A stretch of DNA of 64,000 nt. Origin: Heterostelium album PN500. Its lineage: Eukaryota > Evosea > Eumycetozoa > Acytosteliales > Acytosteliaceae. Under the pieces are notes generated by a model that saw only the letters and a program-made list of their open reading frames with translations, was not told the origin of the DNA and made no database searches. The position numbers and the translations under genes were made by a program. The DNA lies in assembly GCF_000004825.1 (NCBI RefSeq), contig NW_008805075.1, positions 1,788-65,787 of the forward strand. The letters are read 5' to 3'. Numbering within the stretch: the first letter of the stretch is position 1; each line of letters starts with the position of its first letter. Shown one piece after another: positions 2,066 through 11,953 of this stretch.

Positions 2066-3462
2066 TTTAAAATAAAACTTAATTAAAATAACGAATCAAA
2101 AATCAAATATAAATAATTAAAAAGAATCACTAACTTTAAATTTTTTTTTTTTTTAAAAAAAGCAAAACACAAAAAAGCATAGCCACATGATAATAAGTAT
2201 TAGTTTGATGCACCTCTTTAACAATATTTCTATTAATGATTAAATCTATAGATTGTTTTATTTTTTCTTTATTATTAAATTTTAATATATATATTGTGTT
2301 TTGTTTTTTAAATAACTAACTTTTGATCCATGTATAACCACATTACCAACAGTCTACCTGTTTGTAGAATACCAAAGAGGTTACGAGGGGTCATAATGTT
2401 CACGAATTGATTGAACATTATATTTTCTCGATATATTTTCTTTGACAATCGAAACAATGTTGAATTGCTCTAAGCATTATTAGTTAGCTAAAATAAAACC
2501 ATTGGTTTTCACCATATCTTGACAATAATTAAAAGGTTCACGTTTCTCAGCTGCTCTTCTCCTATAGAATTCTCTGAATGATGATGATGGTTTAACCAGT
2601 CAGTTAATAGTTGTTTAAAAGTGAAAAAATAAAATAAATCTATACCTTTATAAATATTACATCCACTATCCTTTTTAGCCAATCTATGATTACATGTGCT
2701 TGTTTATATGTTTATTTTACTTTTTAGTTGAGCAATAGAACTAATTCTGTTATTAAACTCAAACTTTGTAATTGTTTCTGTTATTGAAACGCATGCTAAT
2801 CGGTCATTGTCCAGTAATTAACCTTTATTTACTAATTTACTACATGTATATCTTGGTGATAAATATTCAAATAATAATTAAATTATAACTATATTTTAAA
2901 AGAATGAATTAAGATGTCTGTTTTCTTTTGTTTTTATTGCAAAAAAAAAACCAAACCAAAATATAATTAAAAAAAAATATTATTTTCAAATTCAACATTT
3001 TTTTTGCAAAACTTAGTTTTCATATGATCCAAACACAAAGTTTGGAAGAAAATTATAAAAATATCCCGATTTAGAATGTTTGCTAAATATATTGGTATAA
3101 TCATACCAATCATATTAGATATTAGAAAAAGATTCTTTTTTTTTTCTTGATCCTCAATTCTTTGTAAAAAACTTTTGGAATTAAGTTTTCAACCTTTCTT
3201 TGTTAATACGGAGAGAATTTGCCTCAATACAACAAAACTATGCTTTTTTGTTTTGATCAAAACCAAATTTTTTCATTTTAATTTTTTTACTTTACAACCT
3301 TCAAATTTAACAACAAATACAATCTTCAAATTTATATAATAGTTATTATTTCTTTTATTTTTAAAATATTATTTTTTATATATTTATCTATTTTTATTAT
3401 ACTTATTAGATTTCTTTTTATTTGTTTACATTTTACTCTTACTTATTTTTTTGTTTAGTTTT
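2066..3462. other. Intergenic, 1.4 kb between two mobile-element genes
   Basis: No credible coding exon is seen. It is a divergent promoter region between the transposase-like gene (minus) and the Fanzor gene (plus). It holds long A and T tracts and one perfect 9-bp inverted repeat at 2394-2402 and 2412-2420. The stretch 2330-2600 is somewhat less AT-rich than its surroundings and may be remnant element DNA. I found no terminal inverted repeat matching the right side of the Fanzor gene. Confidence 0.5.
2394..2420. repeat. Short inverted repeat (9-bp arms)
   Basis: TAATGTTCA at 2394-2402 is followed, after nine bases, by its exact reverse complement TGAACATTA at 2412-2420. It could form a hairpin or a dimer-binding site. 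Its role is unknown. Confidence 0.5.
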
Positions 3463-6400
3463 ATGAAAAACCTTTTTTTTAATAATTTTTTATTATTTTT
3501 TTATATAATATTTATTGTTTGTTTAAATATGAAATATGTATATTCCAATAATCAACATCTATCTGAAAATGAGATCAAATCGGAAACTATCGTTTATCCG
3601 TATAATCATTTATATAGAAATGTCAATAATAATAATAATCATCTCCAAAAAATTTTTATTCAATTATCGCAAATTAGTGGATTACTTTCCTATTGTTTTT
3701 CATTAATATATCACGACATTGTAAATAAAATCGATTTTGATATGAAAATGTTTAGTCAAACATTTAAAAAATCGGATATCCCAGAGGAATGGGTGGATAT
3801 TAGGAAAGATGAAGCGAGCATTAGTAAATTTAGATTGCTTTTTGCAAAAAGTAAAATTTCACACAATACTGACCTTTGTGAGGTGATTCTTTTGCAGTTC
3901 CTCTCTGACAGTAAATTGTATGATTTGAAAGATAAGGAAAAAAAAGTAAGATTTAAAATTATAAATTATTCTTATTTCTATAAACTAATCAATTTTATTA
4001 TTTACTCTAATTTAGATTATTAAAGAGTTAAAAGAAAGTGAAATTGCTAAAGATAAATTCATTTTGAAACCAGAAGTTCAAAAGTTAGTTGACAAGTAAG
4101 TTTGTTTTTGTTTTTCGTATTTTTTAAACAATTAAATTAATAAGAAATTTTTTTTTTTTTTAAAAAGATTTTTTAATTTTGTAGTTGTTCTACCATTACT
4201 GAGAGACGAGGAGAATGAGAATTACAAGTTTCTAAGAAAACTTTATCAAGATGTTTATCTGGCATTTCTCAAGGAACATGGTTTGGGAAAGAACAGACTT
4301 GGAAGTTTGAATAGAGACTGGTTCAACGAGATGGTCAACCAAATAGTACGAGACCACATGAAGAATCAATCCAATTTGAATCTGTTGAATATCGAAAGGA
4401 TAAGTAAACACATTATGGAGCTGAATGGTTTTGGTCCGATCGTAACATCCATCAAGAAGTACCTTCTTGCAAAGCCAGAGGAAACCGTAGACTCGGCCTT
4501 GAGAGAGCCTTCAATTTTAATATGGTTACGACAACATGACGCCACAATCACCAAAGAATCGTTCGACCGATTCAAATCTTTCAAAAATGATTTTGAAACA
4601 TACTTGGTGCCAGTGACAAAATCTAGTGAAACGAATTGTACGAGTGCATTGGAATTCATTCAATCTATTCTGAATCATCCAACTATTATTTGTATGTATA
4701 CTTTAATTTTATTTAAAATTTTATTTATTATTTTTATTTATTTTCTAATTTATATAATTTTATAAATCACTTTAGTGCATAATCAAAGAGTACTTCAAAA
4801 TATGGAGGAGAAGAAGAAGAAGAAAGAGAAAGAGAAAGAGAAAGAGAAAGAGAAAGAGAAAGAGAAAGAGGAAGAGGAGGAGAAGAAGAATCAACACAAT
4901 AAAGTCAATTGGAATCAACACACAATTAATCAATTTCAAAATATTGAAAAAGAATTTGGAAAATATTACAATGAAGACAATTATAAAACTGAATCTCAAG
5001 CATGGATCAACTCAATCAAACAACCAACTTCACCAATTCCACTCAAAAATAATAATTCGCAATGGATAAAAGCCAATGACAACTACAACAAACTAATCAT
5101 GATAAATGAATTTATACCAAAGTTTAAATTGGCACCACGCAACTTTATTTTATCTACAAAGTTTCTCCAACAGTTTCTTCTACAATTCTATAACGGTTCC
5201 GATTTCAATCGAGAAGGAAGTTATCTGGATCATCTTTCATTATTAATCAACATACCGGAACAGTTCAAACAAAATTTTTATACGTTTAAACATCCTCTTA
5301 CCGTTTGTCAATTCAATTTGGATCGTGTATCACATTGTGGACACGTGCCACCAGTAGATTCAGTCGACCACACCAATGCACACACAATATGTATGTTTGC
5401 AGCATCCAACAATTTAACTCTAACTGTCCCGAAGCAAAAGAAAGTTGGTGCTATGCTTTGCCCTGAGCACTCTACATTCTCGAAGAAGTGCAAGCTAAGT
5501 AAATGTGGGAGCCGCTGCATTTCTAAATTCAAGGAGTCGGAATGGCGTATCCAGAGTATACGATGTGGATCACTGGATTCCGAACCTCATATTGAAAAGA
5601 AGAACCAATGGATTAGAGACCTATCAAAGCCAAATTCAATCATAGAGGTTACGTCTCAAAAACAAACGTCTATCAATTGGACATCAACCAACGCTTCAAC
5701 CGCCTCTGTGAAACCCAACCAAGAACATTTCAATTCACCATTTTTTGTTGGCTGTGATATAAACTATCAAGGAATGGAATCAATTCCACCGAATTGTGAT
5801 ATAGGTGTCATATTCAGCGATCCAACCAGTAAATGGCATGTTGGACTTACCGCAGATGACACTGATTTCAATTCATCTTTTAAAAAGCTCGGTAAAATTA
5901 TTAATACGGTGTTTAAAGATAAAAAGGTACTTCCAAAACTCTTTATAACCAATAGTTACTCCTCTACAAATTATTCACCTTTTGGAATTCCGGAGCAATC
6001 ACTACCTCATATATTGGCATGGTTGGATCAGATAATTGAAGGGAACCACAAAGTGATTATATTGGCAGATTGGGAATCTCAGAGCTTCATCTTACATCTT
6101 TTCTCGGGCAAGCCAATTCAAAATTCACTCTATAACATCTCAAATCAGAACTCTGGTAATATCGAATCCTACATCCTTTACCACTCTGGACGACCAACAA
6201 CATTGTTCATATTTGCCAACCATCCGACCCCAGGAGTTATGAAGCCTGAGTTGGAATTGGCAAGCAGACTATTGGCGAAGTATGATGGAGATTCCAAACA
6301 TTTCATACTAGATCCAGCCAAGGAAAAGAAACTGAATTTTAAAACCAAACCATCGGATGCTACCAACACAGTCAGTTACGATTATGATGGTAATATTAAT

Positions 6401-8026
6401 TAGAATCTATTGATTTTAGGATGATTTTATATTAATATTATTTTATCAAAACTATATATAGGACCGACTGTATCTTTGAATGGAATCACTTTCTCCATTA
6501 CGTATAAGAAACCAAAGACACGAGAAGATGATGAAAGTATTCATCCCTCCAAACAGCCGTATCATTCATCGCTTAACGTGGATCTTAAAGAATTCCAATA
6601 CATTCAAGATATGGTAAAGGAGTACAAATCTCCACCACCACCACCACCACCCTCAACAACTAAAACAACAACCACCACCTCAACAACATCTTTATCACCA
6701 CCAATAACTTCTCCAAGTGCAGTTTCACCTTTAATTCCAACCATTCCAACATTATCATCATCATCATCCAAGCCAATACAATTCAACTATAACAAATTGT
6801 CGGCTGATACATCAGCAACAAGTAATAATAATAATACATATGATAAAGATTTCAAAATGGATATTGATTCTCAATCTACTTTGGCACATGTGTTTCCTTC
6901 ACCCAAGACATCAATGGCATCATCTTCACAATCTAGCACTACCATTCATTCAACAGCATCCACTACAAACAGTGACAGCAGTACTCATTATTACAATGAT
7001 AGTGATGAAGAATTCAATTTATTGGATTACTACCAGTATTGTCTTGAGAATAAATTGGAAGATCAGGCTTTTACAACACCATCAAAGTCAACACTACAAA
7101 AGAATTGTGAGAGTTTTTTGCCAGATATATCCTTTGAACTGGAGAGGTCGTCTTTTTCCAATAGTGGCTCTCTCTATATTCCACCACCACCACCTATTCC
7201 CGAGAAAACTTCTAAATTTGCATTTGTAATTCCCAATTCATCATCATCATCAACAAAATCATTGATATTACCAACATCCTCATTGTCAGCACCATCATCA
7301 TCTAATCCCTCACCATCAACATCTAATCCCCCACCATCTACAACATCACCAACAACAACCATTTCATCTACAAAACCACAATCATCCAATACCTTACCAA
7401 AACTATTAAAACTCAAACCATCAGCAACAACAAAATCATTGATATTACCAACATCTTCTTTATCAGCACCATCACCAATCTCTAATTCTTTATCAGCACC
7501 ATCATCATCTTCTAATTCTTTATCAGCACCATCACCAACCTCTAATTTTTTATCAGCACCATCATCATCTTCTAATTCTTTATCAGCACCATCATCATCT
7601 AATCCCTCACCATCAACATCTAATCCCCCACCATCTACAACATCACCAACAACAACCATTTCATCTACAAAACCACAATCATCCAATACCTTACCAAAAC
7701 TATTAAAACTCAAACCATCAGCAACAACGAAATCATTGATATTACCAACATCTTCTTTATCAGCACCATCACCATCCTCTAATTTTTTATCAGCACCATC
7801 ACCAACCTCTAATCCATCACCATCTACAACATCTACAACAACAACATCCACTACCGATAGTAGCCGTAGTAGAATTGAAACATACAATCATGTCGACAAG
7901 CGACCAAGAACGACGAATTATATTTTCCAGGGGAGGTAGATTCGTCAAGGAAAGAGACGAATATAGCCTTCAGTCCAATAACAACTCCACGGCTTTAGAA
8001 ATGGAAATGGATATAGATTATCCTTC

Positions 8027-8060
<34 letters not shown>

Positions 8061-9299
8061 ACAACTACTACTACAACAACTCCTAATAATAATAATATTA
8101 ATAATAAATATATATTTGGAATCGATTGCGGAAGATCATCACATGTATCCATCGATGAACACGGTAAAACTCACTCATTCTCTGTCCATGAACATTATCT
8201 TAACTTAAGAAGTCGTTTCAACTCGGAAGCTCAAAAGAAAATGTTGGGTCCAGCCATGTTAAAGTTTGAAAGTCTAATTCCACCTAGTAAGAGTAAGTAA
8301 ACTATCACCTTTTATTTTTAATATAGATTGATATTAATTTATTATATTATTTATTATTTTTTCTTTAGATATCAATGATATCTGTTTGGATAGATCACTG
8401 ATTAGTAACAGGATTAGTTATCTTAGATTACACCCAACAACAACAAAAAACTATGTCAACATTAGATTAGATGAGTACAACCTAATAATGAAGAAGAATA
8501 ACTACTACAATAAGCGTAAATCCTACAATTCAATGGTGGACAAACTGGTTCCAATCAAAAATAGTATAGTCTTTATTGGTTCTGCCAAGTTCAGCCACAA
8601 CAGTCGTGGCCAATCTTCTTTCATTTCTTCAGCCACTCTCTACAAGTGGGTGAAGAAAAAAAAACATAAAGCATTGTGGATCAATGAATGCTACACCTCA
8701 AAAGTAAGTACAACTTAAATTGTCACAAATTATAAATATATTTTTTAATAATTAAATAATTAATCTTTTTTTTTTTTATATTTATAATATAGGTTCATAA
8801 TGCATGTTGGAACAAGACGGAAAAGGAAATTCTTGCTAAACTTAACAACAAAGTTAGCAATATGAAAGATCCTCCGCCATGTGCTCTTTCAAGTGGACCA
8901 TACTCCAAATCAGTTAGCATCGATAGAAATCAAGTAGCTGAGTGTCACAAGCAACTATCAACACTACACCAGACAGTCACAGGATACATAGATGGTACGA
9001 ATAAAGTCAATAGTTCTACTAATAAAAGTAATGAACGATTTGACTATATGAAACACCACTCTTTGTATTCCAATCAAATGTCTGGAAACAATGTAAATGT
9101 TGATGGCTTGGCTAAGGATCATCCGATCCTGAAAGTATTCCAAGAGAAAAAATGGAAAAGGCCACTCTGTCGCTGCTGTGGTCACTTCTACCACCGGGAT
9201 AAGAACGCTTCTAGAAACATCTTACTTCTTGGGTTACTCAGTGTTCGATATCAATTCCGACCAGTCGTGTTCCAATACATCAAATTTATTAACAAATAG
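3463..9299 (+). CDS. Fanzor-family (eukaryotic TnpB-like) RuvC nuclease with long N-terminal extension
   Basis: Proposed exons: 3463-3945, 4016-4095, 4168-4691, 4776-6389, 6462-7935, 7967-8292, 8369-8703 and 8793-9299, giving 1,780 codons in frame. The C-terminal ~390 residues match Fanzor: RuvC-I FGIDCGRSS (Asp ~1445), the helical HPTTTKNYVNIRL region, IVFIGSAKFSHNSRGQ, RuvC-II WINECYTSK (Glu ~1607), then HNAC and CRCCG as a zinc knuckle and RuvC-III HRDKNASRNI (Asp ~1748). The first zinc ligand is His rather than Cys, and about 120 residues separate the two zinc pairs. The first ~900 residues have no domain I recognise; they include a Lys/Glu hexamer tract, a Cys-rich patch and an alpha/beta-looking stretch. 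Residues ~900-1390 are Ser/Thr/Pro-rich linker. The family is known as RNA-guided DNA nucleases carried by transposons. Joining exons 5 and 6 needs a 31-nt intron or a frame jump; otherwise the nuclease would start at the ATG at 7890 as a separate gene of ~415 residues. Confidence 0.8.
4818..4870 (+). repeat. GAGAAA hexamer tandem repeat encoding (KE)n
   Basis: A run of AGAGAA units inside exon 4 of the Fanzor gene encodes alternating Lys-Glu, followed by a short Glu run. It is likely a charged single alpha-helix and a slippage-prone tract. Confidence 0.8.
7287..7790 (+). repeat. Tandem duplication (297-bp period) in the Fanzor linker
   Basis: About 190 bp starting near 7298 recur starting near 7595 with very few differences (for example GCAACAACAAAA versus GCAACAACGAAA). 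The offset is 297 bp, 99 codons, so the frame is kept. The shared protein contains KSLILPTSSLSAPS and SNTLPKLLKLKP. Shorter SLSAPS(P/S)xSN units lie between the copies. The near-identity points to a recent in-frame duplication. Confidence 0.85.
8025..8082 (+). repeat. ACA-type trinucleotide run encoding poly-Thr
   Basis: ACA/ACG/ACT codons encode 18 consecutive Thr just before the RuvC-I motif of the Fanzor protein. It is a typical dictyostelid homopolymer tract. Confidence 0.85.
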
Positions 9300-9456
9300 A
9301 ATTTTACATTCTAACAACAAGTAAGTTAATTATTTTTTTTTAGAAAAAATTTTTGACACTAACCTTCAATTAAATTTTTTTTCACATTTTTTTTTCATAA
9401 TTTCTCTGTCATTCAAAAAATAGTTTCATATTGGAAGAGATAAAATAACAATTTTA

Positions 9457-9460
9457 TTAT
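9457..9460. repeat. Left target-site duplication TTAT
   Basis: TTAT directly precedes the left terminal repeat and matches the TTAT right after the right repeat (12173-12176). It departs by one base from the piggyBac consensus TTAA. Confidence 0.7.
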
Positions 9461-9473
9461 CCCCTAAAGTGTG
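9461..9473 (+). repeat. Left terminal inverted repeat of piggyBac
   Basis: CCCCTAAAGTGTG is the exact inverse of 12160-12172. A palindrome, TTGGGATTTTTCCCAA, lies just inside at 9505-9520 and may be part of the subterminal transposase-binding region. Confidence 0.85.
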
Positions 9474-9584
9474 CTAAATTCGCGTAACTAACAAAAGTTC
9501 ATTCTTGGGATTTTTCCCAAACCAAATGTTGTGTAAAAAAATTAAAAAAAACGTTATTTCTAGTCAAAAAAAATTGAGTATTTA

Positions 9585-11953
9585 TTAAATGTGTTTTAAA
9601 TTATTAAATTTGAATAATGGATTGTGGAAATACATATTGCAATCTTTGTGAAGAGCGATGTTGTGGCAAAAGCATTTTTGTTTGGTTCTTTTTTCTTTAT
9701 AGTTCGTGTTGACGTTATTTAAACAGTAAAAACAATACTCTTGTCCTCCTTCAATGTCTATTAGATCTGGTGTGACAATGGTGTATCTTGTGTTTCTTTC
9801 AATGCTTGGGTTTTTGAGTAGAATTTTGTTAACCACTTCCAAAAGATAGTTTTTGAATCTTAGCGAATTCTCCTTTTCTGACGTTGAGGAGCTGGTGCAA
9901 TTATGTTCTAAAGATTGGAATGCCACAAATGAATTGTATAGAATTGCATAGAAAATATCATTTAATACGACTCTTGAATATGTGCGTGCACGATGGATAT
10001 TTCTTAACGGATTGATGATCATCTTTGTTGAATCTACATAATTGTGGCAGTTATTATACACCCAGACGACTCTTGGTGTTGTTAACTGTTTTGTTGTGTA
10101 GGTTACTTCTCCTTTTACTGTTTTTTTAGTCCTAGAAACTCTCCTCAATTCATGTGTTTTATCTTGGCAGATTGGTTTTGGAATGTTGGTAAAGAAAAAT
10201 ACTGTTTTATCTTTCTTGGCCTGCCATGCTATTGCTGTGTGAAACTTATTGGAACCAAATGACATCTCTCCTTCAGTTGAAAAGTCATTTTTCTTTCGAT
10301 TGCCTCCTTTTCTTGACGGGATGATTTGATCCATAACCTCCTTGCACTTATTCTTAGCAACTGAGACAATGAATGAATAACCTTTGCTTTGGAGGTGCTT
10401 AATATTGTCCATACTGCCAAGAATACCAGCATCAATTATAATACATGTACCAAAGTTAACAGGACAACCTAAATGTTTATCCAGTGCCTCTTCAGTTCTC
10501 TTGAGGATCTCTTGGTTTAAATTTACTGGAATGTTCTGAGACTTAATGATGTTCTTTACATAGTGCTCCAATTCGAAATGGTAAATATATGTAAAAGAGT
10601 CCACCAGTTTCCATAATATGTTGCCAACAGAGTCTGCTTTACCAGCTATGATCTTTTTGCTTCCACCCTTGCCAGTCCACTTGTACAAGTCATCGTCAAA
10701 AGAAAAAGTATCTCCTGGGGTCCAATTAGCTTTGAATATATCATTTACAGCATCCACAATTGGTTGGAAATCGGTACTTGTCAACTTTCCATCTTTGTCA
10801 ATGGTTCCAAAGCCTTTATAGTGCAAACAACGATGAATAGCCTTGAATTTAGAGAATGATAGAATATTGAATACTGAATGGTTGTAAAATGAGATGTTAT
10901 CATCTTTTTTCCACAACTCCTCCATATTCGGGGTCCTAACGAGGCCAGCATAAATGAATATAGCAAGGTATTGCTTAATATCATTTAAACTGAAGTAGGT
11001 GTAGCGTGTATACCATGGAGGTTGCTTTCTGTTTCTCAGAGCTACCAATTTATAATGTTCTTGATATTCATTAGTTGATATGTGTAGCTGTGATAGAAAC
11101 TCTTTAAAGTAGGTATCAAAAACAATTTCTATTCTTTCGTGGAGAGAAAGGGTATTGTAGTTCGCGGGAACCTTAAACTTGACACCTTGGCTATTGCTAG
11201 TCTTCGGAAATGGATTATTCTTGAGGAAATCGATGTTCTCCATTTGTTCTGGTGTAAATCTCATTCCATTGGGCAAGTATTCAATATTTTGCTGATAGAC
11301 AGAGCCATCGCCATCATTACTTGGCACTGCAGTGGAGCCACCATCACCATCACCACCATCACTACCATCTTCTTCTTCTTCTTTCTCCTCTTCTTCTTCA
11401 CCAATGTATTCTTCGAACTCCATATCCATCAAATGAGAATAGCTCTCCTCTTGGTAAACTACCTCTTCTTGGTTTATAAATTCTCTAAGTATAATTCTAC
11501 TTGATTTATTTATGTCAAAGTTCTGGAATGTCATAGGTTCGGGAACGAGTTTAAGTAGTTTAAATAATCGATCCAATGCCACTATATCATTCCATCCATC
11601 TCTGACAAAACTGATGATTTCGTTTAGTGGTATATCATATTTTCTCACCCAGTTTCCAAAGTTGGGATCAAAATAAACATTGTGATCTATCTTTCCTGTT
11701 GACACATCTTTGTTATGCTGTAAAGTAATTATAATATCTTTAAAACATTAACAATTTTGATAGAGATTTATTAATTAATTGATAAATTACCTTTTACTTC
11801 AACAAGTTTCTGTTTTTTATTACTACTTTGATTCTTTTGACTATTTGATTTTTTAGCCACAGCAACTCCACCTAAAAATGCAATTAAAACAAGTCCAAAT
11901 ATAAGATATAAATCGGTTATCGTAAAACCATTATGATTATAAGTGTAGTTCAT
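9585..11953 (-). CDS. piggyBac transposase with predicted N-terminal transmembrane exon
   Basis: The long exon (11717 to 9585) has the DDE_Tnp_1_7 core. The three expected Asp are in FSFDDDLYKW, CIIIDAGILGS and NNCHNYVDSTK. A C-terminal Cys/His zinc finger follows (YCFYCLNN, CFCHNIALHKDC). This frame has no ATG upstream of the core: the open frame begins just after an in-frame stop, and its first ATG (in LVPEPMTFQ) is well inside. A 52-codon exon with ATG at 11953 lies upstream inside the same element. It contains a hydrophobic stretch, LYLIFGLVLIAFLGGVAVA, followed by a Lys-rich segment. Joining it by 11797-11718 (GTAAAA...TTACAG, phase 0) or by 11790-11738 restores one frame of about 762 residues. 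Residues ~90-130 of the long exon are an acidic/Gly-rich tract. The membrane exon is unusual for this family; which splice is used is uncertain. Confidence 0.8.

Follow-up and report, generated by a model that had tools for sequence, protein, structure and literature searches.

The gene analysed here very probably encodes a Fanzor1-type nuclease that travels as the cargo of a DNA transposon, most probably one of the Sola2-Fanzor chimeras that were reported from strain PN500 in 2013. As assembled, the window's own copy is broken; its sister loci hold open frames. The window is the whole stretch of DNA that was analysed (64,000 nucleotides) and corresponds to C14:1788–65787 of the 32.9-Mb assembly of Heterostelium album PN500. 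Polysphondylium pallidum PN500 is presumably the older name of Heterostelium album PN500, and Fanzor1 was reportedly found by Bao and Jurka, in 2013, in Sola2 elements of that strain. Fanzors are eukaryotic relatives of TnpB and are under development as editing tools. In the following, the near-identical loci on contigs C4 and C2 are referred to as the sister copies and two diverged loci on contig C3 as the paralogs. The window, the C2 copy and the two paralogs make up the four-sequence alignment A1.

The family gene model, taken from the open C4 and C2 copies, has seven exons. In the window, the first three are located at 3529–3945, 4016–4095 and 4168–4691 on the plus strand, and the same spliced map was applied to the C4 and C2 copies. 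The fourth (4776–6389; 98% in both sister copies) holds the glycosylase-like domain discussed below. The fifth, as read in the window, spans 6462–7939 and ends in a premature stop at 7937–7939; in the sister copies this exon extends to the equivalent of 8292, and the window segment 7940–8292 is the remainder of this RuvC-I exon, in a frame other than that of exon 5. The RuvC-II exon (8369–8703) and the last exon (8793–9299), which contains the zinc-ligand-type residues, the RuvC-III Asp and the stop, follow on the same strand. The six introns of the gene are of the GT-AG type and 86–92% AT.

The RuvC core and its assignment to Fanzor1

The preliminary description had named FGIDCG, WINECYTSK, CRCCG and HRDKNASRNI as the signature of a Fanzor-type nuclease. 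These motifs are indeed present, in this order and in one frame after removal of the introns 8293–8368 and 8704–8792, both of which lie between RuvC motifs, are AT-rich and obey the GT-AG rule. The catalytic Asp of RuvC-I (FGIDCG) is encoded at 8124–8126. The canonical Glu position of RuvC-II (VFIGSAKF, 8578–8580) is occupied by Gly, as in the paralogs, and an alternative Glu (WINECYTSK) is found at 8686–8688. The last exon supplies His (8796–8798), Cys (8805–8807) and, within CRCCG, two further Cys (9168–9170 and 9177–9179) as residues of the zinc-ligand type, followed by the RuvC-III Asp (HRDKNASRNI) at 9198–9200; all of these lie on the plus strand. A six-frame search of the window finds the pattern CxxC-x(4-8)-RDxNAxxNI once, and 200 mononucleotide shuffles contain no instance of it.

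The spacing of these residues points to Fanzor1. The published motif, as worded in the parts of the two sources available to us, is D-X(125,275)-[TS][TS]-X-X-[finger]-X(5,50)-RD with a C4 finger (PMC10711439; PMC3627910). Within the C-terminal 342 residues of the H. album product, Asp and Glu are 161 residues apart and Glu and His 6, the finger contains an interval of 120 residues, and Cys and Asp are 6 apart; the sequence reads D-X(164)-TS-KV-[HxxC...CxxC]-X(5)-RD and thus has the published order and spacing. In Fanzors, the Glu is described as standing six residues ahead of the finger, and DPG as near exclusive in RuvC-I (PMC10711439). The alternative Glu found here is six residues before the finger (E-CYTSKV-H). 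The same arrangement, with the canonical Glu lost, is described for the Ealt TnpBs (PMC10711439), from which the H. album gene differs in being eukaryotic and intron-bearing and in having a far longer N-terminal region. With SpuFz1 and other Fanzor1 proteins, as far as the consulted parts of the reports describe them, it shares the D-E-D of RuvC, a Glu placed after the fifth strand and ahead of the TNB domain, and a location inside a transposon with defined ends (PMC10432273, PMC11423790).

Some features depart from the characterised Fanzor1 proteins as described in the same sources (PMC10432273, PMC11423790). One is that RuvC-I reads Asp-Cys-Gly in the window, C4 and C2 copies, instead of Asp-Pro-Gly; DPG is present in both paralogs. 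Since DPG is described as near exclusive, it is typical rather than strictly defining. Another is that the finger is His-Cys-Cys-Cys, with His as the first ligand, and is split by 120 residues.

The paralogs (C3:1362468–1366212 and C3:2562253–2565241) keep the three acids and DPG, but both cysteine pairs of their finger are gone; with them, the three RuvC acids are kept in all four A1 sequences. Against the C4 product, their C-terminal parts give blastp E values of 4e-32 and 5e-32, and separate upstream stretches match more weakly (E 5e-9 to 7e-7). The second of them matches the hypothetical protein PPL_02292 at 93%. The AlphaFold model of a 642-residue paralog frame had a mean pLDDT of 37.6 and was left out of fold matching. 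Short degenerate Fanzor fragments with stops were also observed at C25:240102, C10:152717 and C9:2061374, those on C10 and C9 being near matches to the 3′ end of the element.

The C4 zinc finger (TNB) domain, which is found in many TnpBs and Fanzors (PMC10711439), is represented by PF07282, and this model was matched at E ≤ 1 by all four A1 sequences, with the match restricted to its last third. The window scored 23.9 bits, under the curated cut-off of 26.3; among the scores seen, only that of the C2 copy (26.4 bits, E 7.7e-6) clears the cut-off, by 0.1 bit. The last exons alone gave 20.5 bits for the window (E 5.3e-4, under the cut-off) and 13.9 and 14.9 bits for the paralogs. A genome-wide six-frame scan with PF07282 returned nothing at E ≤ 0.001 among the five candidates scored. 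NCBIfam guided_TnpB matched one of the four A1 members weakly (E 0.0092) and did not match the C2 copy, and the transposase family phrog_506 of PHROGs was matched by one of the four (E 0.0076) and more weakly otherwise. In PDB, a single-sequence search gave one chance match to the low-complexity part (E 0.32) and no solved Fanzor, and a profile search gave no match. A large protein set, covered with gaps at certain protein lengths only, yielded no Fanzor outside the H. album genome, PPL_02292 being the one protein retrieved; among viral contigs, none of 32 pattern matches was a relative.

This weak database support outside the H. album genome speaks for a convergent likeness to Fanzor, the cargo then being an unrelated RNase H-like protein. 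We consider this reading highly improbable in view of the spacing of the alternative Glu, the TNB match and RDxNAxxNI, together with the transposon setting and the published Fanzor1 families from the same strain and element type. The Fanzor identity proposed in the preliminary description thus stands on the motifs, the alternative Glu, PF07282 and the 2013 families. Its description of the RuvC residues as intact does not hold for the window copy, whose frame breaks before RuvC-I.

The frame break and the sister copies

The preliminary description had joined eight exons into a single 1,780-codon frame. Exons 1–5 of the window do form one frame, but it terminates at the stop 7937–7939, codon 1371, upstream of the RuvC core; the segments 7940–8292, 8369–8703 and 8793–9299, in which the RuvC motifs are located, are in a different frame. 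The long frame of the window copy therefore yields at most 1,370 residues, without RuvC. The break sits inside a low-complexity block (6629–8105, plus strand; window edges counted from the sequence), which lies between the WED-like strand and RuvC-I.

In the C4 and C2 copies, the region of the window break is uninterrupted coding sequence: spliced by the window's map, they show no internal stop over the seven exons and give 1,771 and 1,742 residues, respectively. In both paralogs, the corresponding region is within one continuous exon. The open state is therefore the state of the family, and the window copy is the exception. Two overlapping genes meeting at 7890 were ruled out because the sister copies read through; the ATG at 7890 is outside the frame used in these copies, so 7890 is not a gene start.

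An unrecognised intron bridging the break, as had been assumed in the preliminary description, could in principle be sought in the frame overlap (7740–7939), where GT...AG pairs of the right length class are present. However, no AT-rich intron of suitable length was found there: the candidates listed are 53–60% AT, compared with 86–92% in the six introns of the gene. The region is also coding sequence in the two sister copies and in the uninterrupted exons of both paralogs, and this explanation is accordingly very unlikely. A distinct possibility, which we hold to be appreciable though short of probable, is that the window copy is intact and codes for a complete Fanzor of about 1,770 residues, the break having arisen through an error in assembly or base calling. 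The break is a single length difference, within a low-complexity exon, among copies that are 98–99% identical. Nevertheless, the assembly itself shows it, and genuine transposon copies do break. Such an error would leave untouched our preferred reading of the family, namely a Fanzor1-type transposon cargo. Short of an assembly error or some bypass of the break, the window copy cannot produce a nuclease from its long frame.

The window copy is 99.2% identical to the C4 copy and 98.1% to the C2 copy over 9.4 kb (window 1 to about 9431). Between C4 and C2, the structured parts carry 15 synonymous and 20 non-synonymous differences, with 6.9 synonymous ones expected (P 0.0016), while the low-complexity block carries 6 and 16 (P 0.49), these counts being small. 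Differences are fewer between C4 and the window, with 12 synonymous and 24 non-synonymous ones overall, and 0 and 1 in the RuvC part. The gene had been regarded as active or recently active. Recent activity fits the family, given three copies at 98–99% and the C4–C2 synonymous excess.

These counts also bear on whether the protein cuts DNA. A Fanzor descendant might have kept its RuvC core for RNA or DNA binding, the work being done by the glycosylase-like domain or the low-complexity block, for example in regulating the transposase. The odd zinc finger, the Asp-Cys-Gly of RuvC-I, the long insertions and the loss of both cysteine pairs in the paralogs would suit such a protein. Its probability is nevertheless low: the four aligned sequences retain every one of the three acids, and the structured parts show the synonymous excess.

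The transposon and its changing cargo

On the minus strand, a divergent gene of the same element occupies 1–2079 and runs off the window start, so that only part of it is seen. Its open frames are 1–729, 725–1441, 1487–1717 and 1739–2095, and the second of them recurs at 97–99% in C2, in C4 and in four more elements, along with weaker pieces. A Pfam search with this gene gave no convincing family. It is probably a Sola2 transposase, a label given because of the description of the PN500 elements: in the part of that report available to us, P. pallidum PN500 is credited with seven Fanzor1 families, of which three reside in Sola2 elements, and the elements PPa-1, PPa-4 and PPa-5 have a common 5′ region of 7 kb (98%) encoding Sola2 transposases and differing 3′ parts (PMC3627910).

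The element in the window has a similar design. The intergenic stretch between the two divergent genes is 2080–3528. DNA similarity to four sister elements (C14:390103, C17:524888, C8:191463 and C25:975246), which is 81–98% in pieces, ends at 3452–3525, just 5′ of the ATG at 3529. Among the 56 matches listed, full copies aside, only C3:1672601 (3464–3584) extends beyond this boundary, and it lies beside a partial copy of the Fanzor gene. The cargo thus differs from element to element and the transposase side is retained, in agreement with the 2013 paper. The shared 5′ module is about 7.7 kb in the C4 copy, its start being judged from C17 alone. By description, PPa-1, PPa-4 and PPa-5 resemble the element in the window in strain, in Fanzor1 cargo, in having short AT-rich ends and in joining differing 3′ parts to a Sola2-type 5′ module that measures about 7 kb and is about 98% identical between elements, and the H. 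album gene is most likely one of the published PN500 families; the frame break, the low-complexity block and the glycosylase-like domain are without mention in the portion of that report consulted (PMC3627910).

In the sister cargo, a plus-strand pattern scan of three stretches (L061–L063) for Fanzor gave one DPAPN-like motif and no RDxN. By sight, reverse-transcriptase-like motifs were seen in a 1,390-residue frame shortly downstream of the cargo frame in the C8 element (C8:198326–202498, minus strand; L062 1326–5498), which is probably a retroelement insertion. By eye, a 600-residue frame beyond the sister cargo in L063 (4445–6247) has a WGR/BRCT-type look.

The 3′ tail of the element, defined by comparing three copies, is 9300–9431 on the plus strand. 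Its 132 bp show no substitution among the three copies and two one-base length differences in C2; about one substitution is expected at such divergence, so that the zero says little. The terminal 31 bp (9401–9431), TTTCTCTGTCATTCAAAAAATAGTTTCATAT, recur with small changes at presumed element ends at 10 loci (three full copies, one partial copy and six others), these loci being chosen by their match to the element 3′ end itself. Sola2 elements are characterised by an AT-rich target-site duplication of 4 bp and by short terminal inverted repeats. The three full copies end in ATAT, with no matching 5′ duplication seen, and no target-site duplications were found. The 5′ end is visible only from the comparison of C4 with C17, and the ends of the C4 element show an imperfect 21-bp match (14/21). 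The 5′ end of the window copy falls ahead of the window, where bases are masked or absent: the preceding 1,787 bases of the contig read N.

The gene had been said to sit next to two other transposase genes. One of them is the divergent gene of the same element. The other is a piggyBac-like gene at 9588–11747 on the minus strand (PF13843, E 1.6e-27; open frame of 720 residues; 98% copy at C27:1221866–1224028), and it lies outside the Fanzor element because the flanks of the copies diverge after about 9431. No tRNA was found in the window.

From work on TnpB, such nucleases are known to help maintain or spread their element. In the model taken from SpuFz1 and other Fanzors, as outlined in the consulted parts of the reports (PMC10432273, PMC11423790), an open copy would bind a guide RNA transcribed from the 3′ end of the element, with flanking DNA as the guide, recognise a target beside a short motif and make a double-strand cut by RuvC. 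By this analogy, the nuclease could cut matching DNA such as an empty site, and repair would restore or spread the element; the transposase would move the element while nuclease-triggered repair restores or spreads its copies. From the analogy we infer that the H. album Fanzor may cut DNA under RNA guidance. The 3′ tail gave no guide RNA signal by fold, where its z values against shuffled sequence were 0.35 and 1.22, or by Rfam, which returned nothing on 3000–9700.

Additions to the core: the low-complexity block and a possible glycosylase-like domain

Most Fz1 proteins have 600–700 residues, as stated in the consulted part of PMC11423790, against 1,771 in the C4 copy. Part of the excess is the low-complexity block, which in the C4 product spans residues 939–1428 (about 490) and consists of 24% Ser, 17% Thr and 13% Pro. 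The strand before RuvC-I reads GITFSIT in the window family, and similar strands, GISLSIT and GDTLSIT, are found in the paralogs.

Another addition is a stretch of 189 residues (5732–6298, plus strand; residues 664–852 of the C4 product), for which AlphaFold2, Foldseek and conservation suggest a predicted uracil-DNA-glycosylase-like fold. The AlphaFold2 model had a mean pLDDT of 62 and a pTM of 0.69. Its best Foldseek matches in PDB were uracil-DNA glycosylases (E 8.5e-4); the glycosylase rows among the first 21 had TM-scores of 0.33–0.44 and rmsd values of 6.5–9.3. In the VIA list, MoaB/Mog/gephyrin chains stood alongside the glycosylases, and the Z values of the glycosylases and the MoaB/Mog folds were equal; the match in fold is therefore not decisive by itself. 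Ranks 1–8 in a viral structure library were unnamed proteins, DNA polymerases and a Nudix hydrolase. The SDP and HP motifs of the domain, which we take to be the first (Asp-Pro) and second (His-Pro) motifs of uracil-DNA glycosylases, are conserved in both C3 paralogs. At the sequence level, PF03167 did not match the domain (Pfam, genome scan), hhalign gave a probability of 0.3%, and a PDB sequence search gave two unrelated matches at E about 1.

The domain thus resembles the uracil-DNA glycosylase superfamily in the predicted alternating order of strands and helices, the Asp-Pro and His-Pro positions and the best PDB matches, and differs in the sequence-level results, the low TM-scores and the Z tie; the resemblance in predicted fold is suggestive only. 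Stretches of the sister cargo in L063 (C14:393100–399500) and L062 (C8) were aligned by MAFFT onto this domain, at 22% and 14% identity to the window, respectively, and from this placement the domain may occur in several cargo families. We tentatively put forward, as a conjecture not far short of an even chance, a Fanzor1 lineage of dictyostelid transposons with a uracil-DNA-glycosylase-like domain upstream of the core, which would unite RNA-guided cutting and the recognition or repair of base damage in DNA within one cargo protein, in a cassette exchanged between elements just before the start codon. If this is true, a Fanzor with a glycosylase-like domain would be new within the literature and databases searched.

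The family itself is already essentially known; what marks it as a variant is its size, the form of its finger, the motif of RuvC-I and the possible glycosylase-like domain. A Fanzor of about 1,770 residues, with a moved Glu, a split finger and a very long Ser/Thr/Pro-rich block, would illustrate how much the RNA-guided core can take on, and an enlarged Fanzor with a possible glycosylase-like domain could hint at the role that Fanzors have for transposons.
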